Source of the DNA: Devosia sp. RR2S18
GTDB lineage: Bacteria; Pseudomonadota; Alphaproteobacteria; Rhizobiales; Devosiaceae
NCBI RefSeq assembly: GCF_030177755.1
Contig: NZ_CP126539.1
Coordinates: 1,016,001-1,080,000, forward strand
Direction: 5' to 3'
DNA: 64,000 nucleotides
The notes below the pieces were generated by a model. That model made no database searches. It was not told the origin of the DNA and saw only the letters and a list, made by a program, of their open reading frames with translations. This document shows, piece by piece, positions 34,591 to 48,863 of this stretch. The position numbers were made by a program, and so were the translations under genes. The number at the start of each line of letters is the position of its first letter. The first letter of the stretch is position 1.

Positions 34591-34687
34591 TGGTGACGCT
34601 CCATAGTTTCAATCTTGAGGGAGCAACGGAACCCACCGAGCTTTGTTCCTCCCGGGGCCGGAGCAAAGGGGAGGTGGCGAGTTGCTG

Positions 34688-36430
34688 GTGTATGGGGATT
34701 TGGAGTGCGTCGAAGATCGTGCCGGTGTCGCATCCGATGTCGAATGCCGCCTTGAGCGTATTGCCCACCTAGAGCTCGGCATTGACCGGCATGCCGCACT
34801 TGTGGCCGCTTACATCCGCCTAGGCGAGCTCGTGCAAGGTATCGCAGATGCCGAGTTCGAGAAGGCCGGAGCGGATGAGCACACCTCTTTGCAGCAAACA
34901 GGGAGCGAGCTGCTGCTGCTCTTGGCTCATGTGCTCAAATCCTCCTGGGAAAGCGGCGTTCGCGAGCAGGTTCTGCCACCGTGCCAGGACCAGTTGAGGA
35001 TCCTTGCGCAGCCCGGTCAGATCCGGACGAAGCAGGCCGAAGGCTTTGCCTTTTACGCCCTATATCCGGAAAGCTACCTCCTGGCTGCGGCCCAGTCCGG
35101 CCTTCCCCCCAGCACTGTCGTTATTGGTATTCGGAGCATCGGCACCAGCCTCGCGGCTATGGTGGCCGCAGGCCTCAATGCCGGTCCAGCACTGACGGTC
35201 CGTCCCTCCGGACATCCGTTTGACCGCCAACTTTCGATTGCCCCCGACCTTGAGGAACGGATCCTGCGTGACAGGAACGCTCCATTCGCAATTGTTGATG
35301 AAGGCCCGGGCTATTCCGGCAGTTCCTTGAACTGCGTTGCCGACTGGCTTGTGGAGCGCGGCATGGGTGAGCACCAGGTTCACTTTTTCCCTAGCCATGG
35401 AGGGGAGCTGGGCGGCGCCGCGCAAGAGGCGCATCTTCGGCGCTGGGCGAATGCCAACCGGCACTTTGTCGGTTTCGACGAAATCGTTTTCAACGATGGG
35501 CTGCTGAGTTCCTGGGTCTCTGCTGCGGTCGGAAACCTGACGGCACCGATGGAGAACCTCTCTGGTGGTGCCTGGCGCCGCTTTCAGGATCGTCCCTCTA
35601 CCATCCCGGTGGACACAGCCCTTGAGAAGCGCAAGTTCCTGGCCCGGACCACCGGTGGTGACTATCTGGTCAAGTTTTCTGGACTGGGCGCCTTCGGTGA
35701 GCGCAAGTTGGCCTTGGGCCAACAACTGGGCCAGAAGGGGCTGACCTCAGAGCCCGTGGCGCTTTGTCACGGTTTTCTGGTGGAGCCGTGGGTCGCTGGT
35801 GATGAGCTGCAGCTGCCGCTGAAGCCGGATCAGGTGCAGCAAGTTGGCCGCTACCTTGCGGTCCGCGCACGCCAAATGGCGCCCTATGCTGGTGCCTCTC
35901 TCCCAACTCTTTTCGGAATGGCCGCATACAATGCGGGTCAATGTCTTGGTGGTGGTGCCGAAGAGCGGGTTCGCAACGCCCTTGGTGATCCTGCACGATT
36001 TCACCCGCAGCCCTGCTGCACCGATAATCGACTGCATCGGTGGGAGTGGGTTGTCACCGAGGACAACTCGCTCCTGAAGACGGATGCGCTTGACCATCAT
36101 GCCGCGCATGACCTGATCGGAAGTCAGGACATCACCTGGGACATCGCCGGCGCGAAGGTGGAGCTGGCGCTGACTCACGGGCACTTGGCTCAGTTGGTGG
36201 AGATAGTTCGAGAAAGTGCCACTGCTGATCTCGCGCTGCTGCAGGCGATGGAGATCTGCTACCTCGCCTTCCAGATAGGACTTTGGACACAGGCCGCTGG
36301 CCGGTGCGGCGCTGCTGAGCAGGCTGGTATCGCTGCCCTGATTCAATCCTATTCCCACCGGCTCGAAAGCTGTGTTGCCGGGCAGCACGACACAGCCGAG
36401 GGCTCCGCGACGGCAGCGGCAGCGTCCTAG
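34688..36430 (+). CDS. Phosphoribosyltransferase-like protein fused to a kinase-like C-terminal region
   Basis: A protein of about 580 residues. Its N-terminal third carries a type I PRTase pattern: STVVIGIRSIGTSLAAMVAAGL (nucleotide loop) and FAIVDEGPGYSGSSLNCVAD, the PRPP-binding loop with two acidic residues and Ser/Gly. The C-terminal half resembles a small-molecule kinase: KFLARTTGGDYLVKFSG, a hinge LVEPWVAGDELQL, and VTEDNSLLKTDALDHHAAHD with DITWDIAGAKVE as catalytic/metal-like blocks. It is divergent from inositol-3-phosphate synthase. I do not know a characterised member. The start is uncertain: the frame opens at 34643 (TTG); GTG 34688 is used here. Confidence 0.6.
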   Translation: MYGDLECVEDRAGVASDVECRLERIAHLELGIDRHAALVAAYIRLGELVQGIADAEFEKAGADEHTSLQQTGSELLLLLAHVLKSSWESGVREQVLPPCQDQLRILAQPGQIRTKQAEGFAFYALYPESYLLAAAQSGLPPSTVVIGIRSIGTSLAAMVAAGLNAGPALTVRPSGHPFDRQLSIAPDLEERILRDRNAPFAIVDEGPGYSGSSLNCVADWLVERGMGEHQVHFFPSHGGELGGAAQEAHLRRWANANRHFVGFDEIVFNDGLLSSWVSAAVGNLTAPMENLSGGAWRRFQDRPSTIPVDTALEKRKFLARTTGGDYLVKFSGLGAFGERKLALGQQLGQKGLTSEPVALCHGFLVEPWVAGDELQLPLKPDQVQQVGRYLAVRARQMAPYAGASLPTLFGMAAYNAGQCLGGGAEERVRNALGDPARFHPQPCCTDNRLHRWEWVVTEDNSLLKTDALDHHAAHDLIGSQDITWDIAGAKVELALTHGHLAQLVEIVRESATADLALLQAMEICYLAFQIGLWTQAAGRCGAAEQAGIAALIQSYSHRLESCVAGQHDTAEGSATAAAAS

Positions 36431-36708: not shown

Positions 36709-37935
36709 ATGCCACCTAAGTTAAAAGTTCAAAACATCTTTAAGATCTTTGGAGACCAGCCGCAGATCGCACTGGAGCGGTTGCAGCAAGGACAGAGCAA
36801 AGAAGTCATTTTCGAAGCAACGGGCCAGACGGTCGGCGTCCAAGACGCCAGCTTCGACGTCGAAGAGGGGCACATCTTCGTCGTCATGGGGCTGTCCGGT
36901 TCGGGGAAATCCACCTTGGTCCGCATGCTCAACGGGCTGATCCGCCCCACCAGCGGCGAAATATTGATCGACGGGGAGGATGTAGCCTCCTGTTCAGCCG
37001 AAACACTGCGTCGGATTCGTCGGGAGAAAATCTCGATGGTCTTCCAGCACTTTGCGCTGTTTCCCCATATGAGCGTGCTTGAAAACGCTGCCTACGGGCT
37101 GCGGGTGAAGGGCGTTGGCGTGGCCGAGCGCCGCCGCCGTGCGCTTCACGCTCTGGAGCAGGTGGGCCTTGCCGCCTATGCCGAGAGCAAGCCGGGAGAT
37201 CTCTCGGGTGGTATGCAACAGCGTGTGGGGCTTGCCCGAGGCCTAGCGACTGATCCTCAGGTGCTGCTGATGGACGAGCCGTTTGGTGCACTCGATCCGC
37301 TCATCCGCCGGGAAGTGCAGGACGAGCTGCTGCGCCTGCAGAAGACGCTCAAAAAGACCATCGTCTTCATCACGCACGACCTCAACGAGGCGCTGCTGTT
37401 GGGAGACCGCATCGCCATCATGAAGGATGGCGAGCTCGTCCAGATCGGCTCTGCCCAGGAGATCGTCGACAGTCCAGCGAACGAGTATGTGGCAGCCTTC
37501 GTCGCTGACATCGATCGCGGCAAGGTCTTCACAGCCGATACGATCGCGCAGGAGCCGGTGTCATTGCAGTTGCATACCGACACGGCCGAAACCGCCCTTC
37601 AGAACATGGAGGATCTCAATCGCAACGCGCTTTATGTCCTCGATGGCGAAGATATTGCCGGCGTCATCACCTATCAGGATGCGGTCGTCGCCGCCCGTGA
37701 CGACAACACCACGCTGGCCGAGGCCATGACATCGGGCTTTTCTTCCGTCGAGGCCGGTGCATCCCTGCACGAGCTCTATGGCCCCGCCAGTGCTGGCCTG
37801 CCGATTGCAGTTACAGACGAAGACAACAAGCTGGTCGGCGTCGTCGAACCCGAGGCGGTTCTGGCGCAATTGTCAGGCGAAGCCGTGACGCCGCCGTTAG
37901 CTGAAGATGAGGCGAAAGGAGCGACACATGCCTAG
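36709..37935 (+). CDS. proV: Glycine betaine/proline ABC transporter ATP-binding protein
   Basis: A 408-residue ATPase with Walker A GLSGSGKST, Q-loop VFQHFALFPHMSV, signature LSGGMQQRVGLAR, Walker B VLLMDEPFGALD and H-switch THD. The C-terminal region from about residue 285 looks like a pair of CBS modules (NALYVLDGEDIAGVITYQDAVVA), which in OpuA/ProV sense ionic strength. It powers uptake of compatible solutes under osmotic stress. Its stop overlaps the proW ATG by 8 nt. Confidence 0.93.
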   Translation: MPPKLKVQNIFKIFGDQPQIALERLQQGQSKEVIFEATGQTVGVQDASFDVEEGHIFVVMGLSGSGKSTLVRMLNGLIRPTSGEILIDGEDVASCSAETLRRIRREKISMVFQHFALFPHMSVLENAAYGLRVKGVGVAERRRRALHALEQVGLAAYAESKPGDLSGGMQQRVGLARGLATDPQVLLMDEPFGALDPLIRREVQDELLRLQKTLKKTIVFITHDLNEALLLGDRIAIMKDGELVQIGSAQEIVDSPANEYVAAFVADIDRGKVFTADTIAQEPVSLQLHTDTAETALQNMEDLNRNALYVLDGEDIAGVITYQDAVVAARDDNTTLAEAMTSGFSSVEAGASLHELYGPASAGLPIAVTDEDNKLVGVVEPEAVLAQLSGEAVTPPLAEDEAKGATHA

Positions 37936-38860
37936 TCCATCCGATCTCCTGATGATTCCGTTCGACGACTGGGTCAACGTGCTCGTCCGCGAATGGATCG
38001 TGCCGAACTTCCGACCCTTCTTCAGGGCAATGCAGGTGCCGGTCAGTTCCGTACTTGCCTGGCTCGATACCTTCTTCAATGCTGTGCCGATGCTGGCCTT
38101 CACCGCGGTGCTCGCCTTCATCGCCTGGCGCACCGCTGGTCGTGGCGTAGCAATTTTCACCGTCATTGCCCTCGTTTTCATCGACATGATCGGGCTCTGG
38201 CCCGAGACAATGACCACGCTCTCGATGATCATCACTTCGGTGCTGTTCTGCGTGGTGCTCGGCATCCCCTTGGGTATCCTGGCGGCCCGCAGCGACAAGG
38301 TTCTCGCGGTGGTCCGGCCGGTGCTCGACATTATGCAGACCATCCCGTCCTTTGTGTATCTTGTGCCCATCGTCATGCTTTTCGGCGTCGGCATGGCTCC
38401 GGGGATCATCGCCACCATCATCTTCGCTCTGCCCCCGATTGTGCGCCTCACCAATCTTGGCATCCGCAATGTCCGCGCCGACCTGATTGAGGCCGCGGAA
38501 GCATTCGGTTCCACCTCCTGGCAGATGCTCAAGGACGTGCAGTTTCCGCTCGCCCTGCGCACCATCATGGCAGGCCTAAACCAGACCCTAATGCTGGCGC
38601 TCTCGATGGTGGTGATCACTTCCATGATTGGTGCCGGAGGCTTGGGCCTCACGGTTTACACCGGTCTCGGGCGCCTCGATGTTGGCGGCGCCACAGCAGG
38701 CGGTGTCGGTATCGTTCTGCTCGCCATTATTCTGGATCGCATTACGCAGGCTCTAGGCGAAAACAGCGGATTCCGCACCGTTTCGCTCCGCCATACCCTG
38801 CTCACCTTCTTCCGCCGTGGCCGCCCTGTGGTCACCGGGGAAACGCGAAAGGCAAACTAG
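37928..38860 (+). CDS. proW: Glycine betaine/proline ABC transporter permease
   Basis: A 310-residue membrane permease with about seven helices. The EAA loop for contact with the ATPase is VRADLIEAAEAFGSTSWQMLKDVQFPLALRTI. The ATG at 37928 lies within the proV stop, which indicates coupling. The typical TM block VLDIMQTIPSFVYLVPIVMLFG is present. Confidence 0.92.
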   Translation: MPSPSDLLMIPFDDWVNVLVREWIVPNFRPFFRAMQVPVSSVLAWLDTFFNAVPMLAFTAVLAFIAWRTAGRGVAIFTVIALVFIDMIGLWPETMTTLSMIITSVLFCVVLGIPLGILAARSDKVLAVVRPVLDIMQTIPSFVYLVPIVMLFGVGMAPGIIATIIFALPPIVRLTNLGIRNVRADLIEAAEAFGSTSWQMLKDVQFPLALRTIMAGLNQTLMLALSMVVITSMIGAGGLGLTVYTGLGRLDVGGATAGGVGIVLLAIILDRITQALGENSGFRTVSLRHTLLTFFRRGRPVVTGETRKAN

Positions 38861-38896
38861 CCTTTCTCAACGCGGCGCAAGTCTGCGCCACTTCGA

Positions 38897-38914
38897 GCGG
38901 ACCCTAAGGTCCGC
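38897..38914 (+). other. Stem-loop between proW and proX
   Basis: GCGGACC/GGTCCGC with a CTAA loop; a perfect 7-bp stem with no T-run. It lies 34 nt before the proX start and may protect the more abundant proX message from decay. Confidence 0.45.
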
Positions 38915-38948
38915 AACAACAAGAACCAACAAAGGGAGACAAAAACCT

Positions 38949-39986
38949 ATGTTCCGTCTCACGAAGTCCCTCGCCGTCCTCTCCGCTGCAGCCATGCTGT
39001 CGGCGGCTCCAGCAGCCGTGCTCGCTCAAGAAGAGCCGGGTGCCGGCACCACGATCAATATGGCACAGGCCACTTGGGATACCGGCTGGTTCCATGCCGA
39101 GATCTACAAGCAACTGTTTGAAGAACTGGGTTATGACGTGCAGGGCCCGACCACGCTCGACAACCCGCCCTTCTATCAGGCGGTTGCTCAGGGCGACGTT
39201 GACCTCTGGGTCAATGGCTGGTTCCCGCTGCACAACACCTATCAGAGCACTTTCGAAGGTCAGGCCGAGATCATCGGTGCCGTCGCCGAAGGCGGCGCTT
39301 TGGAGGGCTATCTCGTCGACAAGGCGTCGGTCGAAGAGTTCGACATCCAGTCTCTTGAGGACTTCAAGCGTCCTGAAGTGAAGGAAGCCTTCGACCGGGA
39401 CGGTGACGGCCGTGCCGACCTCGTCGCTTGCCCTCCGGGCTGGGGCTGCGAGATCAATATCGAGCATCATCTGGACGCCTATGAACTGCGCGACCACGTG
39501 AACCCCATCAAGGCCAGCTATTCGGCTTCGATGGCCGACGCGGTTGCCGCCTATGAAGCAGGCGAGCCGATCTTCTTCTACACCTGGACGCCAAACTGGA
39601 CCGTCAACGAGCTGGTGCCGGGCGAAGACGTGATGTGGATCGAGGTCCCCGAGGTCAATCTGCCTGAAGATATGGCCGATCTCGCCGATGCGGCTGTGCT
39701 CGAGGGCGTCGAAGGCTGCGTCGCCGATCCGTGCAAGCTCGGCTTCCCTGCCAACGACATCGTGCCGGTGGCCAATTCGGCCTTCCTTGAAGACAACCCG
39801 GCCGCTGCAAAGCTGCTCGAGGTCACTTCCATCCCGCTGCAGGCCATCTTCGCCCAGAACGCTGAGATGAATGCGGGTGCCGGTAGCTCCGAAGACATCC
39901 AGAACCAGGCATCCACCTGGATCGAAGAGAACCGCGACATGGTTGACGGCTGGCTTGAAGAAGCTCGTGCCGCCGCGCAGTCGTAA
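38949..39986 (+). CDS. proX: Glycine betaine/proline ABC transporter substrate-binding protein
   Basis: A 345-residue periplasmic protein. Residues 1-26 are a signal peptide ending AVLA before QEE. The body has the ProX/OpuAC features NMAQATWDTGWFHAEIYKQLFEELGYDV and VDLWVNGWFPLHNTY; the Trp residues form the aromatic box for quaternary amines. YTWTPNWTVNELVPGEDVMWIEVP is a second conserved block. Third gene of the proVWX operon, followed by a strong terminator. Confidence 0.93.
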   Translation: MFRLTKSLAVLSAAAMLSAAPAAVLAQEEPGAGTTINMAQATWDTGWFHAEIYKQLFEELGYDVQGPTTLDNPPFYQAVAQGDVDLWVNGWFPLHNTYQSTFEGQAEIIGAVAEGGALEGYLVDKASVEEFDIQSLEDFKRPEVKEAFDRDGDGRADLVACPPGWGCEINIEHHLDAYELRDHVNPIKASYSASMADAVAAYEAGEPIFFYTWTPNWTVNELVPGEDVMWIEVPEVNLPEDMADLADAAVLEGVEGCVADPCKLGFPANDIVPVANSAFLEDNPAAAKLLEVTSIPLQAIFAQNAEMNAGAGSSEDIQNQASTWIEENRDMVDGWLEEARAAAQS

Positions 39987-40972: not shown

Positions 40973-41542
40973 TCAGTCCTTGGCGCGTTCCACGTAGGAA
41001 TTGTCTTCCGTGAGGATGACGATGCGGGTGCCGGTATCGATGTGCGGCGGCACCATGACGCGCAAGCCATTGTTGAGCACGGCGGGCTTGTAGGACGACG
41101 ACGCTGTCTGACCCTTAACCACTGGTTCCGTTTCGACGATCTCGAAGGTCAGGCGCTGCGGCAGTTCCATCGAGAGCGCCACACCCTCATGGGTCATCAG
41201 GTGCACCTTCATGCCATCGGTGAGATAGGCCTTTTGGTCGCCGATGACGTCGTCGGGAACTGTGATCTGCTCATAGGTCTGGGGCTCCATGAAGTGGTGC
41301 CCTTCGCCGTCGGAATAGAGATAGTCATAGACACGATCGTCGACGTCTGCCTTCTCGACCATTTCCACGGTGCGCCAGCGCCCGATCACCTTCACTCCGT
41401 CGGAGATGCGACGCATGTTGACGTTGGTGACCGAATTACCCTTGCCGGGGTGGACGTTCTCGGCGGTGAGGATGACATGCAGATTGCCGTCCTGCTCGAC
41501 GACGTTGCCCTTGCGGAGCGACGAGGCGATGACCTTGACCAT
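40973..41542 (-). CDS. efp: Translation elongation factor P
   Basis: A 189-residue protein of normal length with three beta-barrel domains. The modified Lys34 is in [15 protein letters not shown] rescues ribosomes stalled on polyproline. The two enzymes that put beta-lysine on Lys34 (EpmA and EpmB) are encoded divergently next door, so the complete modification unit is here apart from the optional hydroxylase EpmC. Confidence 0.96.
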
Positions 41543-41670
41543 ATTTCTTCCTTGTTAGAACTCGTGGCGCGGCGTAGAGCCGTTTTGTCCAGCGCGCCGT
41601 CAATAAACTCTGTCGGTGCGCCAACTACCCTATCTCTTGGGAAATCTCTAGTCCGAACGGCCAAGAGCGC

Positions 41671-42729
41671 GTGAGCAATTCTTCTGACATGCCCGAAAGC
41701 TCCTGGTGGTCGCCGCATAGGCATGCCGACCGACGACCAATTCTGCTGGCGCGGAACCGGATCGATGCTGCACTGCGGCAGTACCTTGTCGAGCGGGATT
41801 TCCTGCTGGTGGACCCGCCTGGGTTGCAGCGTTCGCCCGGCAACGAGACGCATCTGCACGCTTTCGGCACGACGATGATCGGCAATGACGGGGAGGGCAA
41901 GGCTATGTATTTGCACACCTCTCCCGAATTCACCATGAAGAAGTTGCTGGCGGCCGGCGAGCGGCGGATTGCCAGCTTCCAGCATGTCTGGCGCAATCGC
42001 GAGCGGAGTGCGCTGCATCATCCTGAGTTCACTATGCTCGAGTGGTATCGCGCGGGCGAGGACTATGGCGTTATAATCGAGGACTGCCTTGCCATGCTGC
42101 GCCTTGCGGCGGAGACTACAGGGGCGAAAAAGCTGCAGTTTCGCGGGCGAGAGGCCGACCCATTGGCGGAAGCCGAGCGGATCAGCGTTGTTGAAGCCTT
42201 CGCAAGATATGCGGGAATCGATCTTCTCGCGACCATCGATGCCGATGGTATTGCCGATGGCGATGCCTTTGCCGAGCAGATGACGGAGCGCGGGCTGAGC
42301 GTGCCCGAGGATCGCAGTTGGAGTTATCTCTTCAGTCGCGTCCTGGTCGAGAAGGTCGAGCCAAATCTAGGCCTTGGGCGGATCACAGTGCTTGATCGCT
42401 ATCCCGCCTGCGAGGCGGCGCTGGCCCGGCGGGCGGCGGATGATCGGCGGGTGAGCGAGCGTTTCGAGCTCTATGCCTGTGGCGTGGAACTGGCCAATGG
42501 CTTCGGCGAACTGACCGATCCGGAGGAGCAGCGCCGCAGATTTGCCGCCGAGATGAACGAAAAACACCGACTTTATGGGGAGCAATACCCCATCGATGAG
42601 GAGTTTCTGGCAGCTTTGGCGATCATGCCCGAGGCAAGTGGAGTGGCAATGGGCTTTGACCGTCTGGTGATGCTTGCCACGGCGGCGCCGCGGATCGAGA
42701 TGGTGCTGTGGGCGCCGGTTGCCGAATGA
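41671..42729 (+). CDS. epmA: EF-P lysine aminoacylase EpmA (PoxA/GenX)
   Basis: A 352-residue class II lysyl-tRNA-synthetase-like enzyme without the anticodon-binding domain. Motif 2 is FQHVWRNRERSALHHPEFTMLEWYRA, motif 3 is GVAMGFDRLVMLA. MYLHTSPEFTMKKLL is typical of EpmA. It activates beta-lysine and transfers it to EF-P Lys34. The GTG at 41671 has an AAGAG site before it; ATG 41689 is the alternative. The stop overlaps the epmB start (ATGA). Confidence 0.95.
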   Translation: MSNSSDMPESSWWSPHRHADRRPILLARNRIDAALRQYLVERDFLLVDPPGLQRSPGNETHLHAFGTTMIGNDGEGKAMYLHTSPEFTMKKLLAAGERRIASFQHVWRNRERSALHHPEFTMLEWYRAGEDYGVIIEDCLAMLRLAAETTGAKKLQFRGREADPLAEAERISVVEAFARYAGIDLLATIDADGIADGDAFAEQMTERGLSVPEDRSWSYLFSRVLVEKVEPNLGLGRITVLDRYPACEAALARRAADDRRVSERFELYACGVELANGFGELTDPEEQRRRFAAEMNEKHRLYGEQYPIDEEFLAALAIMPEASGVAMGFDRLVMLATAAPRIEMVLWAPVAE

Positions 42730-43769
42730 AGCCCGCTCGCGCCATTAAAACCGTAGACGAACTGGTCGGGGCCGGCCTTGCTCGCGATGCCGCCGTCTTA
42801 GCGGCAGTGGCGTCGCGCTACGCCATTGCGATCACCCCAAGTGTTGTCGAACTGATGGACAGTTCTGCACCAGATGACCCCATAGCGCGACAATTCGTGC
42901 CCTCGGACGCTGAACTGGTGACGACGCCCGAGGAGCGGGCCGATCCGATCGGGGATCTGGCGCATTCTCCGGTCGAGGGTATCGTGCATCGGTATCCCGA
43001 CCGGGTGCTGCTCAAGGCTGTGCATGTGTGTCCGGTTTATTGCCGCTTCTGCTTTCGCCGGGAGATGGTAGGTCCCTCTGGCTTGGGGACGCTCACGGCT
43101 GAAGCGCTGGACCGCGCCATCAACTATATCGCGGCGCATGAGGAGATTTGGGAGGTTATCCTCACCGGCGGCGACCCCCTGGTCCTCTCGCCGCGACGGC
43201 TGCGGGAGATCACCGCGCGGCTGGCCGGGATCGAACACGTTAGAATTGTGCGCTTTCACACGCGGGTGCCTGTGGTGGAGCCCGAGCGGGTGGATGGCGC
43301 GCTGATCGATGCACTCAAGGCCAGCGGCAAGACCACTTACCTGGCGCTGCATGCCAATCACCCGCGGGAGTTTTCACCGGCTGCGCGTGAGGCTGTCAGG
43401 CGGCTGGCGGATGGTGGCGTGGTGCTGGTCAGCCAATCGGTGCTGTTGCGGGGGGTGAATGATGATGTCGAGACGCTCGCAACCCTGATGCGGACCTTCG
43501 TCGAAAACCGCATCAAGCCCTATTATTTGCATCACCCCGACCTGGCGCCGGGGACCAGCCATTTTCGTCTGTCGATCGAGGAAGGCCAACGGCTCGTCTC
43601 GGCACTGCGGGGGCGAATCTCGGGGCTATGCCAGCCGACCTATATCCTCGACATTCCCGGGGGGTACGGCAAGGCCGATATCGGCACGAGCGCAATCACG
43701 GGCACCGATGGTTGCTTCACCGTTCGCGACCATCGCGGGCAGGAGCACCTCTATCCGCCGGCGGAATAG
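42726..43769 (+). CDS. epmB: EF-P beta-lysylation protein EpmB (lysine 2,3-aminomutase-like radical SAM)
   Basis: A 347-residue radical-SAM/PLP enzyme. The cluster motif is CPVYCRFCFRR (near residues 102-109), the SAM-binding GGDPL follows, and the PLP lysine is probably in DIPGGYGKADI near the end. It converts L-alpha-lysine to beta-lysine for EpmA. Start ATG overlaps the epmA stop by 4 nt, so the two are translated together. Confidence 0.93.
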   Translation: MKPARAIKTVDELVGAGLARDAAVLAAVASRYAIAITPSVVELMDSSAPDDPIARQFVPSDAELVTTPEERADPIGDLAHSPVEGIVHRYPDRVLLKAVHVCPVYCRFCFRREMVGPSGLGTLTAEALDRAINYIAAHEEIWEVILTGGDPLVLSPRRLREITARLAGIEHVRIVRFHTRVPVVEPERVDGALIDALKASGKTTYLALHANHPREFSPAAREAVRRLADGGVVLVSQSVLLRGVNDDVETLATLMRTFVENRIKPYYLHHPDLAPGTSHFRLSIEEGQRLVSALRGRISGLCQPTYILDIPGGYGKADIGTSAITGTDGCFTVRDHRGQEHLYPPAE

Positions 43770-44195: not shown

Positions 44196-44843
44196 TTACG
44201 CGGTCTCCAACGCCTTGCCGGCCGGGAAGATGCCGGACATGACCACAAAGCCAGGGATGCGGCGGACGCGGTCTGTCCAGCGCCGGAGGGCAGGGTAGTC
44301 CTGCCGGCTGATGCCGCCTTCCTCGGAAAGCATCACATAGGGAAAGCAGGCGATGTCGGCGGTGGTGGGGTGTGCGGGTGAACAGAGCCAGTCGCGGCCG
44401 TCGCGCTCGCCGAACCAGAGATGCTCGTCCATGATGCGGAAAATGCGGTGTGCGCCCTTTTGCGTGGCTTCCACGTCGAAATTGTAGTCATAGCCGAGAG
44501 CGAGCCGAGCCGCCGAAGAGGTGCTGGTGATGTCATCGGCCACTGCATGCCAGCGCAGGATTTCGGCGGTGACTGACGGGTCATCAGGGAACCACTGCCC
44601 TGTGGGATCATACTTTTTCGCGAGATAGGCAAGGATTGCGCCGCTGTCAGACAGGACGAGGTCGCCGTCCGTGAGCACCGGCAATTGGCCGAACGGGTTG
44701 AGGCACAGGAACCAATCGGACTTGTGCTCGCGGCCGGGGAAGAAGTCGACCGGCACGATGTCGTAGCTGACGCCCAAAATGCTCATCAACAGGCGGAGCT
44801 TGTAGCAATTTCCAGAAAGTTCAAAGTCGTAAAGAGTGATCAT
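44196..44843 (-). CDS. GST-family protein, NdmE-like by position
   Basis: A 215-residue glutathione S-transferase-fold protein. The thioredoxin-like domain is ITLYDFELSGNCYKLRLLMSILGVSYDIV, with LNPFGQLPVL and the G-site LSDSGAILAYLA. The helical domain has HPTTADIACFPYVML (the conserved N-cap/hydrophobic staple Asp). It is the last of a three-gene minus-strand unit after a Rieske-less oxygenase subunit and a Rieske-containing reductase. In Pseudomonas caffeine degraders a GST homologue (NdmE) is a structural partner of exactly such a pair, so a scaffold role is proposed. An ordinary GST role is the alternative. Confidence 0.82.
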   Translation of the reverse strand: MITLYDFELSGNCYKLRLLMSILGVSYDIVPVDFFPGREHKSDWFLCLNPFGQLPVLTDGDLVLSDSGAILAYLAKKYDPTGQWFPDDPSVTAEILRWHAVADDITSTSSAARLALGYDYNFDVEATQKGAHRIFRIMDEHLWFGERDGRDWLCSPAHPTTADIACFPYVMLSEEGGISRQDYPALRRWTDRVRRIPGFVVMSGIFPAGKALETA

Positions 44844-44892
44844 GGGCAGTCACGGAGCGATGGGCTGGGGGAGGCGGGAGCGGGGTGCATGA

Positions 44893-46599
44893 TCAGATAT
44901 CCAGAACTAGCCGGTCGCCCTTGGCGCGGCTGACGCAGGTGAGGATGGCGGTATTGGCCCGCTTCTCGCTCTCGTTGAGGTAGACGTCTTGGTGGTCGAC
45001 CTCGCCCTCGATCACCCCGCAGAGGCAGGTGCCGCAGGCACCCTGCTCGCAGGAGGAGGGGACCGACAGGCCCGCTTGGCGCATGGCTTCGAGGATGGTC
45101 TTGCCGGCCGGTACATGCAGCGTCATCGCCGAGCGCGCCAGTTCCACGTCGAAGGCGGTGGAGTTGTCGATGATCTTGTCGTTCTTGAAGTACTCGAAAT
45201 GGACGGCCTCGTCGGGCCAGTTCCGGGCCGCCGCCGTGGCGCGCACAGTTTCCAGCATGGACGCTGGCCCGCAGACATAGACGTGCTGGGCAAAGCTGTA
45301 CTCGCCCAGGATCTCGGCAATGCGAGCACTACTCGCTTCGCGCGGCAGCCCGGTGTGGAACTCGACGCGGCCATGCAGCACTTCGAGTTCGGAGCGGAAG
45401 GCGACCTGCTCGCCCAAACGTGTGAAATAATGCAGCTCATAGGGCAGGCCGGACTTGTCGAGAAAGCGAGCCATGGAGAGGAGCGGCGTAATGCCGATGC
45501 CGCCGGCGATCAGCACGGTGCGGGTGGCGTCGCGGCGGAGCGGGAAATTGTTGCGGGGCTCGGAAATGGCGAGCACGTCGCCCTCGCGCACACGCTCCAC
45601 CAACACCTGGGAGCCACCGGTGCTGGTGCTCTCCTGCTTGACGCCGATGACGTAGCTGAGGAGTTCGCCTGGACCATTGGTGATGGAATATTGCCTTGTC
45701 ATGCCGTTGGGCAGGTGCACGTCGATGTGGGCGCCGGGTTGGAAGGTTGGGAGGTGGCCGTCGCGCGCCGCCAGCTCGAAGCCCATAATGGCGTCAGCCG
45801 ACTGCCATTTGCGCTTGACCACAACGGGGATCGTGTTGCCGCGCGGCACGGCGATGTCGGGCATGGTCGCAAGATCGACCGAGACCTGCTCGAAGACCGG
45901 CTGCAGGGGCGCCGGCTGCGGCTTGCGAGCGGCGGCTCGCTCCAGCCGATCGCGCAGCCGGGTCAGCATCTCGTTGTAATGCCGCAGCACCGTCAACGGA
46001 GCTTCCGGACGGCCGGCGTGGAGGCCGCGAATGACAGCGCGGGTGGAATCGACCGGCTGTACGAACCAGGTGACGGGCGCCAACCGCACGACCAGTTCGG
46101 AGAGCATCTCGGCCGGCTGGTCGTCGGGTGCGAGCCGCGCCAGGGCTGCGGCGACGTCTTCCGGCGCGGCGTTGACGGGCATGGGCCGGAGCGCAATCCA
46201 GTCAGCTGCTTCCGCGCCTGGGAAGGGGGCGAAGGGCAGCTCGGCATTGGCGGCGGACCAGACAAGGCCGAAGGCCTCCCGCACTGGGTACTTGCGGTTT
46301 TCGATGCGGCGAGCCGGTGCGTCAGCGGGGTGGGCGGGAATATAGGTGCAGCCAGCGGAGCGATTGGCATAGCGCCAGCCGTGATACTGGCATTTGAGCT
46401 CCTGGCCCTCATTGATACCAATGGAGAGGCGCACGCCCCGATGGAGGCATCGGTTTTCCCAGACATTCACATTGCCGTCGTCGGCGCGCCAGACGGCCAA
46501 TTCCCGGCCCAGTAGCTGCCCCTGATAGACATGGCGGAAGGGCAGATCGTCCGAACTGGCGATGGGGTACCAATGGGGATCGGTGAGGGAAAGGGGCAT
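44893..46599 (-). CDS. Reductase with extra N-terminal Rieske domain (NdmD-like)
   Basis: A 568-residue four-part protein. (1) An N-terminal Rieske domain has CLHRG (near residue 50) and CQYHGW (near 70), giving C-x-H and C-x2-H ligands. (2) A linker region of about 110-240 resembles an oxygenase small part. (3) An FNR-type flavin/NADH module has RQYSITNG, AGGIGITPLLSM and VCGPASMLE. (4) A plant-type 2Fe-2S domain has CEQGACGTC (near 516) and a final ILTC. Normal oxygenase reductases lack part 1; NdmD of purine-alkaloid demethylases has it, and that Rieske domain serves an oxygenase subunit that has lost its own. The gene just upstream is such a subunit. Confidence 0.9.
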   Translation of the reverse strand: MPLSLTDPHWYPIASSDDLPFRHVYQGQLLGRELAVWRADDGNVNVWENRCLHRGVRLSIGINEGQELKCQYHGWRYANRSAGCTYIPAHPADAPARRIENRKYPVREAFGLVWSAANAELPFAPFPGAEAADWIALRPMPVNAAPEDVAAALARLAPDDQPAEMLSELVVRLAPVTWFVQPVDSTRAVIRGLHAGRPEAPLTVLRHYNEMLTRLRDRLERAAARKPQPAPLQPVFEQVSVDLATMPDIAVPRGNTIPVVVKRKWQSADAIMGFELAARDGHLPTFQPGAHIDVHLPNGMTRQYSITNGPGELLSYVIGVKQESTSTGGSQVLVERVREGDVLAISEPRNNFPLRRDATRTVLIAGGIGITPLLSMARFLDKSGLPYELHYFTRLGEQVAFRSELEVLHGRVEFHTGLPREASSARIAEILGEYSFAQHVYVCGPASMLETVRATAAARNWPDEAVHFEYFKNDKIIDNSTAFDVELARSAMTLHVPAGKTILEAMRQAGLSVPSSCEQGACGTCLCGVIEGEVDHQDVYLNESEKRANTAILTCVSRAKGDRLVLDI

Positions 46600-46690
46600 G
46601 GTCGATCAGATCCGAAGTCTGTTGGATCGCGCCACGATCGAAATTCGTGTTTGGCGTGGCCCTGGCGTACGGGGCAACGTCTCTACTCTA

Positions 46691-46767
46691 TGTCATCCCT
46701 GCGAGAGCGGGGACCTCTGCTGGGTTGGCAGCATCTTCAACAGGGATTCCCGCTCGCGCGGGAATGA
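46691..46767. repeat. Paired palindromic intergenic repeat
   Basis: Left arm GTCATCCCTGCGAGAGCGGG and right arm CCCGCTCGCGCGGGAATGAC each form small hairpins and are inverted relative to each other, with 37 nt between. This is the common 'GTCATTCCCGC' palindrome type of many proteobacteria. It fills most of the gap between the oxygenase and reductase genes. Confidence 0.7.
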
Positions 46768-46786
46768 CCCTGCGGGTGGGCTGCGC

Positions 46787-46810
46787 CGGTCACCCCGCCT
46801 GCGGGATGAC
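46787..46810. repeat. Related palindrome covering the 3' end of the oxygenase gene
   Basis: GGTCACCCCGC and GCGGGATGACC form an 11-bp near-perfect stem with a CT centre. Read on the minus strand it supplies the last residues VIPQAG and the TGA stop of the oxygenase subunit. Confidence 0.65.
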
Positions 46811-47686
46811 CCCATAGGTGATGCCCTTTTGGCTCAGCCACCGGCGGTAAGCGATGGCGCTTTTGTCGGCGCGGATCGGGGTTTCGGCGCGCGGATCGAG
46901 CGGCAGCTTCTTGGGGTATTGGTTTTCGAGAATGGGCTTGTCCTGGCCGAAGATGGTCTGCTGAAATCGGCGCAGCTCGGTGATCGAATTGGTGGAATCG
47001 ATCATCGACTGGAGCAGATGAGCGCGGCAGCGTTCTTCCGTCATGGGCTGGAGGAAAATGCCGATGACATCGCGGCGCGTTTCGTCCTCGGGGCAGGATT
47101 TATAAAGCACCGAGCAGAAAGGATGGGGGACACGATAGACATACTCGACTTCGATGCTGCCGCTGGCCGAGAGAGCCGCTCTGGGCTGCATGAAGCGGCA
47201 TTTGGTGGCCAGCACCTCGTCCCGCTCCTCGGAGACTTCGACGTCGTATTCCTTGACCTCGGTATGGGGCTCGGATCCCAGGATATCGGTGTGCACATAG
47301 GGGAAGTGCCCCATGTCGAGGAAGTTCTCGACGGCACGCGGGGCCGAGACGTGGATGCCGATGGACCCGCAGCTCATGTTGACCCGGTCCGGCTCGGCAA
47401 ATTCGGGAATGGGAAAGAGCTCGCTCTGCGGAGTGCCCAGGCTGGTCCAGACATAGCCGTAGGCGGTCTTAACCGGCAGGCGCTCGAGGATGGTCTCGGG
47501 GTCGATCTCATCGCCCGCTTCTTCATCGCTGCGCAACCAGACGACAGGCGCGCCATCACTGCCGCGCGTCAGTGCGAGGCGCGTGTCGAGCAGCAGGGTG
47601 GTTTCCACCATCCCAACGGGCAGTTCGTCAGTGGCGGCAATGACGTGCCAAAGATCGCGCGTGACGGGGTCGAGTGATGAAGGCAT
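46790..47686 (-). CDS. Rieske-less oxygenase catalytic subunit (NdmC-like)
   Basis: A 298-residue protein aligned by pattern with VanA/PaO-type oxygenase alpha subunits. The N-terminal start LWHVIAATDELP and LLLDTRLALTRGSDG are kept, but where the CPHRG/CPYHGW Rieske cluster should follow there is only a short acidic linker (LRSDEEAGDEIDPETILERL). The catalytic Fe site is intact: ENFLDMGHFPYVH (D-x2-H-x4-H, near residues 120-133), with the third-ligand Asp likely in FGQDKPILENQ. The electron must come from a Rieske domain in another protein, and the next gene encodes one. A TTG at 47698 is an alternative start. The C-terminal end is formed by a palindromic repeat. Confidence 0.88.
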   Translation of the reverse strand: MPSSLDPVTRDLWHVIAATDELPVGMVETTLLLDTRLALTRGSDGAPVVWLRSDEEAGDEIDPETILERLPVKTAYGYVWTSLGTPQSELFPIPEFAEPDRVNMSCGSIGIHVSAPRAVENFLDMGHFPYVHTDILGSEPHTEVKEYDVEVSEERDEVLATKCRFMQPRAALSASGSIEVEYVYRVPHPFCSVLYKSCPEDETRRDVIGIFLQPMTEERCRAHLLQSMIDSTNSITELRRFQQTIFGQDKPILENQYPKKLPLDPRAETPIRADKSAIAYRRWLSQKGITYGVIPQAG

Positions 47687-47822
47687 GACAGGTCTCAACT
47701 TTGCTCTTCAGCATAGCGCGGTCGAACGCCCGTGCCACCCGAAAAGTTCGTCCTGGATCATGCGCCGGATGGTTCGCTTCGATCCGGCGCCGTGGCATAA
47801 GGCTGAGGAAAGGGAGAAGCAG

Positions 47823-48863
47823 ATGGCAAGCACGGAACAGGGGGCACGGTTTCCCGAGGCGCTGCTCGAGGAACGCGTGGCCGGTGCGTTGCGGGCGGCA
47901 GGCGCCAGCGAGGCTTCGCTCGGCGCCGCCACCACGGCTATGCTGCATGCGAGCCAGGTAGGCGTGGACAGCCATGGCGTGCGGCTGACGGAACATTATT
48001 GCCGCATGCTGGGCGGTGGACGGCTCAACAAGAACCCACAACTCCAGGTGGAGCGTCGCGCGGCGGGCAGCGCCATTGTGCATGGCGATGACGGGCTTGG
48101 GCACTACGCCATGTACCACGCTGTTGAGGTAGGCATGGAGCTGGCGCGCGAAAGCGGCGTAGCCGGGGTGGGCGTTAGCCACTCCTCCCATCTTGGTGCC
48201 GCCGGGGCCTATGCCTTGGCGGGGGCGGAACTGGGCTTTGTCACCTTTGCCACCACCAACACCGATTCCATGGTGGCGCTGTTCGATGGCGCCGAGCGAT
48301 TCCACGGCACCAACCCGCTCGCCTTTGGCGCGCCGGTGCCGGGGCAGAAGCCGTGGCTGCTCGACATGGCGACCTCGTCGATCCCGATGAACCGGGTGCT
48401 GCTGCACCGGTCACTGGGGCTGCCGCTACCCGAGGGTGTCGCAGCTGACGCGGACGGGCAGACGACCACCGATGCAGATGCGGCCGAGATGCTGCTGCCG
48501 CTGGGCGGCGCGGATTATGGCCACAAAGGCGCTGGGCTGGCGGGCGTCGCCACGCTGTTCTCGGCGCTGCTCACCGGGACGACACTCGATACCGATTTCA
48601 TCCCCATGTATGGCGGGGACGATATCGCGACCCCGCGGAACATGGGCCACTTCGTGCTGGTCATCGACCCCGACAAGTTCGTTGGGCGCGAGCTCTTCGG
48701 GCTGATGATCACGCGCTATCTCGCGAGCCTGCGGGGGGCGCGGGTGCGGCCCGGCGCTGAGCGCGTCCTGGCGCCGGGCGATCGGGAGTGGGAGGAGGCC
48801 GCAAGTCGGGCCGAAAAGGGCATCCCCATCGACCCGGATACGGCGCGGTTCCTCGGGCTCTAG
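47823..48863 (+). CDS. Ldh2-family NAD(P)-dependent oxidoreductase (malate/L-lactate/ureidoglycolate dehydrogenase type)
   Basis: A 346-residue member of the Ldh2 family, which is unrelated to Rossmann dehydrogenases. Conserved blocks are ASQVGVDSHGVRLTEHY (catalytic His), VGVSHSSHLGAAGAYA, FGTNPLAFG-like HGTNPLAFGAPVPG, and LPLGGADYGHKGAGLAG. Family members reduce 2-oxo acids; one branch oxidises ureidoglycolate in purine breakdown. It is divergent from the NdmC-like gene, so a shared role in N-methyl or purine degradation is possible but not shown. Shine-Dalgarno AAGGGAGAAG precedes the ATG. Its stop overlaps the converging SDR stop. Confidence 0.85.
   Translation: MASTEQGARFPEALLEERVAGALRAAGASEASLGAATTAMLHASQVGVDSHGVRLTEHYCRMLGGGRLNKNPQLQVERRAAGSAIVHGDDGLGHYAMYHAVEVGMELARESGVAGVGVSHSSHLGAAGAYALAGAELGFVTFATTNTDSMVALFDGAERFHGTNPLAFGAPVPGQKPWLLDMATSSIPMNRVLLHRSLGLPLPEGVAADADGQTTTDADAAEMLLPLGGADYGHKGAGLAGVATLFSALLTGTTLDTDFIPMYGGDDIATPRNMGHFVLVIDPDKFVGRELFGLMITRYLASLRGARVRPGAERVLAPGDREWEEAASRAEKGIPIDPDTARFLGL

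Follow-up and report, generated by a model that had tools for sequence, protein, structure and literature searches.

An NdmCDE-like three-gene unit of Devosia predicted to form a bisected Rieske oxygenase

Introduction

The described system closest to the genes reported here is NdmCDE. In the accessible part of the literature it appears in the setting of caffeine degradation, and the portion of PMC10380055 available to us reports NdmCDE as specific for 7-methylxanthine and as a 3:3:3 complex to which a glutathione S-transferase (GST) gives solubility. The same portion reports complete, functional demethylation genes on a 174-kb plasmid of Paraburkholderia caffeinilytica CF1. Here we analyze a three-gene unit in a window of 64,000 nucleotides from Devosia sp. 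RR2S18 (contig NZ_CP126539.1, positions 1,016,001 to 1,080,000; coordinates below are those of the window). The unit encodes a Rieske-less oxygenase (OX), a reductase with an extra N-terminal Rieske domain (RED), and a GST-fold protein. Our work suggests that together the three genes probably specify a single bisected, NADH-dependent Rieske oxygenase, which would demethylate a methylated purine base and release the methyl group as formaldehyde.

Results

As the yardstick for NdmC, NdmD, and NdmE we used the cluster on plasmid p1 of P. caffeinilytica CF1 (NZ_CP031468.1, 174,591 bases; locus L106), which stands in for the proteins of Pseudomonas putida CBB5, whose ndmE is KC778191 according to PMC13237722; the plasmid record itself carries no Ndm names. 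Its genes encode, in order, two full Rieske oxygenases, a Rieske-less oxygenase, a reductase bearing a Rieske domain, and a GST; S-(hydroxymethyl)glutathione dehydrogenase and then S-formylglutathione hydrolase come next, and ABC genes, a nucleobase symporter gene, and a gene for a Bmp-family binding protein are in the vicinity. The genes of the window are three intact open reading frames (ORFs), all on the minus strand and ordered OX-RED-GST, and their products match those of L106 over nearly the full length. OX shares 45% identity with the Rieske-less oxygenase (NdmC; 292 columns) and about 25% with the two full Rieske oxygenases, RED is 39% identical to NdmD (599 columns), and the GST is 56% identical to NdmE (211 columns). 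Together with the domains, these matches bear out a preliminary description of the window, which had proposed an NdmC-NdmD-NdmE-like three-gene design. It had also stated that NdmA and NdmB are not encoded nearby, and this holds genome-wide: a PF00355 search (E <= 0.001) found neither, its three matches being frames of 570 (RED), 197, and 188 amino acids (aa), of which the latter two are too short for an oxygenase.

OX (46790..47686, minus strand) reads as 302 aa from an ATG; with an in-frame TTG as start, its longest reading reaches 47698. Its Pfam match is PF19112 (VanA_C), Pfam found no Rieske domain in it, and an NCBIfam scan of it gave no match. The mononuclear iron motif D-x2-H-x4-H lies at 47291..47317 on the same strand (residues 128 to 136 of the 302-aa reading, D-M-G-H-F-P-Y-V-H), and the candidate third iron ligand, Asp253 (codon at 46940..46942, minus strand), is invariant in two alignments. 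D128, H131, H136, and D253 are all invariant across 22 aligned oxygenases, that of the window included. A motif scan of OX found no C-x-H, and its sole C-x2-H, at residue 224, is unpaired and lies within the catalytic domain. The iron motif is present in all 71 distinct oxygenases from the relatives and the window (71/71), and the Rieske pair of C-x-H and C-x2-H in none (0/71); a lone C-x-H occurs in one betaproteobacterial protein, and the pair is present in 3/3 full Rieske controls. Motif scan, Pfam, and this count agree with the earlier claim that OX keeps the iron site and has lost both Rieske ligand pairs. The possibility that OX is a full-length Rieske protein broken by an assembly error, which the preliminary description had named as a refuting outcome, is rejected because 0/71 sequences carry the pair. 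As modeled with AlphaFold2 (predicted local distance difference test score [pLDDT], 83.8), OX has the Rieske oxygenase fold; the best PDB matches of the model are SxtT and GxtA (query template modeling [TM] score, 0.73 to 0.79; root mean square deviation, 5.3 to 6.3), and the query TM score against NdmA is 0.64 to 0.65. SxtT and GxtA are Rieske oxygenases that carry their own Rieske cluster, and their Rieske region also matches RED.

RED (44893..46599, minus strand; 568 aa) is NdmD-like by ORF, Pfam, and alignments, and all of its parts lie on the minus strand. A Rieske domain occupies residues 9 to 91 (46327..46575; PF00355, 68.3 bits), and residues 255 to 568 (44896..45837) form a flavin/NAD reductase and plant-type ferredoxin part, identified by Pfam and a match to 2pia, with PF00111 (2Fe-2S) at residues 487 to 560. 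Between them, at about residues 122 to 225 (45925..46236), lies a degenerate domain without iron ligands. From hhalign comparisons with controls and from the strands and helices of the model (10-residue block pLDDT, 77 to 93), we propose that it is what remains of the catalytic domain of a Rieske oxygenase. The Rieske ligands C51/H53 and C70/H73 are invariant in 18 aligned reductases, and the ligand pair is present in 34/34 distinct reductases; with PF00355, this confirms the earlier view that the second gene encodes a reductase to which a Rieske domain (C-x-H, C-x2-H) has been added at the N terminus. D-x2-H-x4-H is absent from the first 260 residues of RED in 33/34 distinct sequences, and such a string occurs in the remaining one.

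The first half of RED and OX can be aligned with each other end to end. With a hhalign profile built from this half together with NdmD and the stand-alone Rieske proteins of the type III loci described below, profile positions 10 to 239 of RED matched 14 to 251 of OX (prob 97.7, P 1.7e-12). The stretch that binds the cluster is missing from OX in this alignment, and gaps in RED span much of the catalytic domain. With 60 column-shuffled OX profiles, neither the score of this match nor that of the post-Rieske part of RED alone was reached, and an unrelated GST profile gave prob 0.1 with the post-Rieske part. In the model of RED, residues 106 to 224 form strands and helices compatible with a reduced catalytic domain; the cluster region, residues 51 to 100, has a pLDDT of <50. 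From the profile matches and the models of OX and RED we infer complementary loss from a common fold, which suggests that one Rieske-oxygenase fold survives as two complementary remnants, OX and the N-terminal half of RED.

The third gene (44196..44843, minus strand) encodes a 215-aa, NdmE-like protein with PF02798 and PF13417, as expected for the GST fold assigned to it earlier. When P. caffeinilytica NdmE was searched against the whole genome, the window GST was the best match (E 4.6e-84) and the next had an E-value of 1.9e-7. In a GST tree, whose interior is poorly resolved and whose bootstrap is unsettled, three other GSTs of the same genome and one unlinked GST stand on long branches apart from the window GST. 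By sequence, the window GST is closest to NdmE and the cluster-linked GSTs. An ordinary detoxifying GST is rejected by the NdmE search and the poorly resolved tree, and a grouping with such GSTs, the second refuting outcome of the preliminary description, did not occur.

The unit is conserved well beyond this genome. Locus counts refer to 80 loci of named relatives, in which genes were called with our own codon-score script, so that starts and some ORFs are approximate. OX, RED, and GST are strictly adjacent and on one strand in 73/80 loci; in the other seven, contig ends cut the unit (L029, L038, L040, and L065), RED was called in two pieces (L054 and L075), or an opposite-strand gene call interrupts the order (L028). 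The nearest named relatives are Devosia species, with OX mostly 80 to 90% identical and 66 to 69% identical in a few Devosia records. Counting the source genome each time, OX was found in 21/25 genomes of the genus (one of the four without a match is only 62% complete) and in 48/297 genomes of the order (E <= 1e-40), and RED in 6/398 genomes sampled from the phylum (E <= 1e-80).

Maximum-likelihood trees place OX among rhizobial relatives. In a first tree of 72 rows, including three full Rieske proteins, the Rieske-less oxygenases form one group against these three. A second tree of 65 rows, which left out the three full Rieske proteins and four long-branched rows (two betaproteobacterial, one type III, and one OX1), has five well-supported clades: OX2, which contains the window protein, OX1, OX3, betaproteobacterial NdmC, and type III. 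OX2 pairs with OX3 (support 98/92), and OX1 and the type III oxygenases lie closer to NdmC, with modest support (91/91 in the first tree). NdmC is represented in these trees by P. caffeinilytica and other betaproteobacterial proteins, none of them from Pseudomonas, and with this set the best trees agree with the earlier suggestion of a separate branch. The assumption of strict orthology of OX with NdmC is rejected, as the best trees place OX with its rhizobial relatives. As OX lies outside the NdmC clade in these trees, N7 specificity is not simply transferable to it by orthology.

Relatives show further architectures. A second Rieske-less oxygenase, OX1 (called at >60% identity to one reference), is present in 33/80 loci, and four loci (L061, L079, L086, and L108) have a third. 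One of these, L108, is a second cluster on pSymA of Sinorhizobium meliloti 2011 (1184000-1206000), in which a single reductase and a single GST accompany three different Rieske-less oxygenases; the cluster also has an ABC set and a zinc alcohol-dehydrogenase-like gene that resembles the formaldehyde dehydrogenase. Another such cluster (L107) lies on pSymA of S. meliloti strain 1021. The joint presence of OX1 and OX2 in rhizobia suggests that the two act on different substrates. The type III loci (L149-L166) come from 18 genomes picked from the weaker OX matches among the 48 genomes of the order with a match. A GST was called near the oxygenase in 18/18, and 15/18 have a stand-alone Rieske protein of 162 to 257 aa and no fused reductase. 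The Rieske gene was uncalled in L153, L159, and L162, for one of which a shorter locus of the same place (L148) gave a tblastn match. A separate reductase gene adjoins in 1/18 (L160). A small protein recurs beside the stand-alone Rieske gene, as at L152:10048-10344 (acylphosphatase family), L154:3274-3546 (no Pfam match), and elsewhere.

Purine genes and purine-type transporters recur around these units. Bmp-type ABC genes are near in 10/18 type III loci (L151 is cut by a contig end), and guanine-deaminase-like or related amidohydrolases also in 10/18; among ten neighbors scanned, matches to the guanine deaminase (L152 and L154) and 8-oxoguanine deaminase (L155 and L161) models exceeded the cut-off, whereas other neighbors, including an adenine-deaminase-like protein in L154, fell below it. 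Rhizobial loci have genes for a Bmp-type ABC set and a GntR-family regulator that diverge from the unit (Pfam domains checked in L091). The Devosia genome has a purine cluster at higher coordinates of the same contig, with ureidoglycolate lyase, allantoinase PuuE/OHCU decarboxylase, hydroxyisourate (HIU) hydrolase, XdhA, XdhB, XdhC, and guanine deaminase, each over the NCBIfam cut-off; a Bmp-type ABC transporter separates guanine deaminase from the Xdh genes. In the two closest non-Devosia loci (L047 and L048; OX 83% identical), the transporter adjoining the unit is 72 to 79% identical, gene by gene, to this one, for which the next best loci reach 39 to 54%. Some neighbor labels were assigned by eye (L055, L061, L073, and L097), among them those of the ureidoglycolate-lyase-like, allantoinase-like, and Xdh-like genes downstream of the unit in L061, whose XdhB-like protein is 68% identical to the Devosia XdhB. 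Homologues of the formaldehyde dehydrogenase of L106 (72 to 81%) are present in 15/80 loci and of its formylglutathione hydrolase in 6/80, many loci ending soon after the GST; a formaldehyde dehydrogenase homologue (72%) is encoded elsewhere in the Devosia genome.

Within the window, an Ldh_2 family oxidoreductase (47490-48863, plus strand) is divergent from OX. The Ldh_2 gene stands directly upstream of the triple in 20/80 loci and, as far as the locus labels show, only in Devosia and near relatives; its product resembles ureidoglycolate dehydrogenase but scores far below the AllD cut-off (186.8 against 496.2 bits). On the other side of the unit, ProVWX-type betaine/proline ABC transporter genes (36709-39986, plus strand) are followed by elongation factor P, an EpmA-like ligase, and a lysine-2,3-aminomutase-like protein (TIGR03822) at 40973-43769. 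A 595-aa ORF (34643-36430, plus strand), for which neither Pfam nor NCBIfam gave a match at the limits used, adjoins an inositol-phosphate synthase-like gene. In Hansschlegelia quercus (L073:3-9877), a Bmp-like ABC set and amidase-like and isochorismatase-like genes precede the unit, a neighborhood that suggests another nitrogen-heterocycle pathway.

Discussion

How might a Rieske oxygenase work without a Rieske cluster? We favor the reading that the three proteins act as one bisected, NADH-dependent oxygenase. The part of the Rieske domain that binds the cluster would have been lost from OX, and RED would have kept the cluster in its N-terminal half while losing the iron site there; with these complementary losses OX and RED may make up one functional oxygenase, held together by the GST-fold protein. 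Because of the known chemistry of these domains and of NdmCDE, electrons would pass from NADH to flavin, to the plant-type ferredoxin domain, to the N-terminal Rieske cluster of RED, and on to the mononuclear iron of OX, and the demethylated product would enter the xanthine pathway. From the purine pathway of the Devosia genome and the orthologous transporter beside the unit in close relatives we infer a purine substrate, and it is likely that the unit acts on a purine. With much less certainty, the single likeliest substrate is 7-methylxanthine, formed for example from 7-methylguanine by guanine deaminase. As the genome has no other caffeine enzymes, the unit may recycle methylated purine bases from other sources.

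Several observations weigh against this reading. The purine cluster lies 83 to 99 kb from the unit and is not beside it in the Devosia genome, and the Bmp binding protein is present in 25/25 genomes of the genus, including the four without detected OX. Hence, the binding protein is not dedicated to the OX substrate, and we reject the idea that in Devosia the transporter is dedicated to the unit. Some relatives have unrelated neighbors, a TRAP-type set in L055 and a sugar-type ABC transporter in L097 (both labeled by eye). The post-Rieske part of RED alone matched the end of OX more weakly (63 columns, prob 71, P 3.7e-5), and in the structure comparison of RED the reductase half accounted for the matches, with the Rieske half barely covered. 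Finally, forcing OX2 together with NdmC was marginally rejected in an approximately unbiased (AU) test of the second tree (p-AU 0.048), whereas OX1 with NdmC (p-AU 0.32) and type III with NdmC (p-AU 0.45) were not rejected. The test groups were named after the first tree had been inspected and branches are long, so the deep order is uncertain.

The purine reading could take narrower forms, whose chances overlap with its own. The unit may simply be an alphaproteobacterial NdmCDE, an N7-demethylase specific for 7-methylxanthine that finishes the breakdown of caffeine or theobromine begun by other organisms or takes part in the breakdown of 7-methylguanine. We consider this possible but would not bet on it: the shared architecture, the 39 to 56% identity to the proteins of the caffeine degrader, the specificity reported in the accessible part of PMC10380055, and the guanine deaminase and xanthine dehydrogenase of the genome are consistent with it, but OX groups with rhizobial OX2 and OX3 while the NdmC side, with its modest support, holds OX1 and type III, and the coexistence of OX1 and OX2 in rhizobia argues for distinct substrates. 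A demethylase with another preference (N1, N3, or exocyclic, such as N2-methylguanine), acting on bases from nucleic-acid turnover, would fit the separate clade, the columns in which OX2 differs from NdmC (for example, H192 versus R), and the guanine and 8-oxoguanine type deaminases beside related clusters. However, no sequence feature here marks the methyl position, and we regard this form as unlikely.

Less likely still is a non-purine substrate, such as an N-methylated pyridine or betaine (of the homarine, trigonelline, or stachydrine type) or a methoxy compound; the preliminary description had likewise allowed for a different N- or O-methyl compound. The ProVWX-type betaine transporter lies 4 to 8 kb from the GST gene, the Pfam family of OX is named after vanillate O-demethylase, and a bacterial homarine pathway is cited in the accessible part of PMC13390433. 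However, the elongation factor P, EpmA-like, and aminomutase-like genes separate the transporter from the unit, and purine-type transporters and deaminases are repeatedly found next to relatives. A decayed or misassembled Rieske oxygenase without function, to which nothing points but the missing Rieske ligands, is highly improbable and is rejected on conservation, given the intact frames, the invariant iron-site residues, the iron motif in every distinct oxygenase, the same state and order across relatives, and the presence of OX in most genomes of the genus.

A bisected purine demethylase in Devosia could be part of something larger. We tentatively hypothesize that bisected Rieske N-demethylases form an undescribed family that is widespread in Alphaproteobacteria and acts on methylated purine bases from nucleic-acid turnover (for example, 7-methylxanthine derived from 7-methylguanine), with NdmCDE as one specialized offshoot. 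An ancestral Rieske oxygenase would have been duplicated, one copy losing the cluster and the other the iron, and the two would now be obligate partners; in other branches the cluster-bearing half would be free, without a fused reductase, or one reductase would serve two or three oxygenases. It is this wider family, including the second and third architectures, that would be novel. Our literature search, made largely in openly accessible papers, found no description of this oxygenase branch, and it found no gene-level account of nitrogen recovery from methylated purines in bacteria outside caffeine degradation, a process on which the unit would bear. If Devosia and rhizobia share a conserved branch without NdmA and NdmB, whose absence was checked in the Devosia genome, this would mean that split Rieske oxygenases are common and would point to a substrate source other than caffeine. 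The free Rieske subunit and the sharing of one reductase by several oxygenases would be natural dissections for studying cluster-to-iron electron transfer between separate chains.

How does the unit compare with known enzymes? Full-length Rieske oxygenases of the NdmA/NdmB and VanA type have the overall fold and the iron motif in common with OX, but they are only about 25% identical to it and keep both Rieske ligand pairs, of which OX has none. SxtT and GxtA are the best PDB matches of both the sequence and the model of OX. Phthalate dioxygenase reductase (2pia, 321 residues) matches only residues 252 to 568 of RED and lacks the N-terminal Rieske half that RED has. Compared with the caffeine gene set ndmABCDE, the Devosia genome has no detected NdmA or NdmB, and, unlike in L106, no formaldehyde or transporter gene directly adjoins the unit. 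With NdmCDE the unit shares a Rieske-less oxygenase, a Rieske-bearing reductase, and an adjacent GST, whereas in the best trees its OX falls in a different clade than NdmC. Judged by its sequences, the unit is a new and distinct member of the NdmCDE kind.

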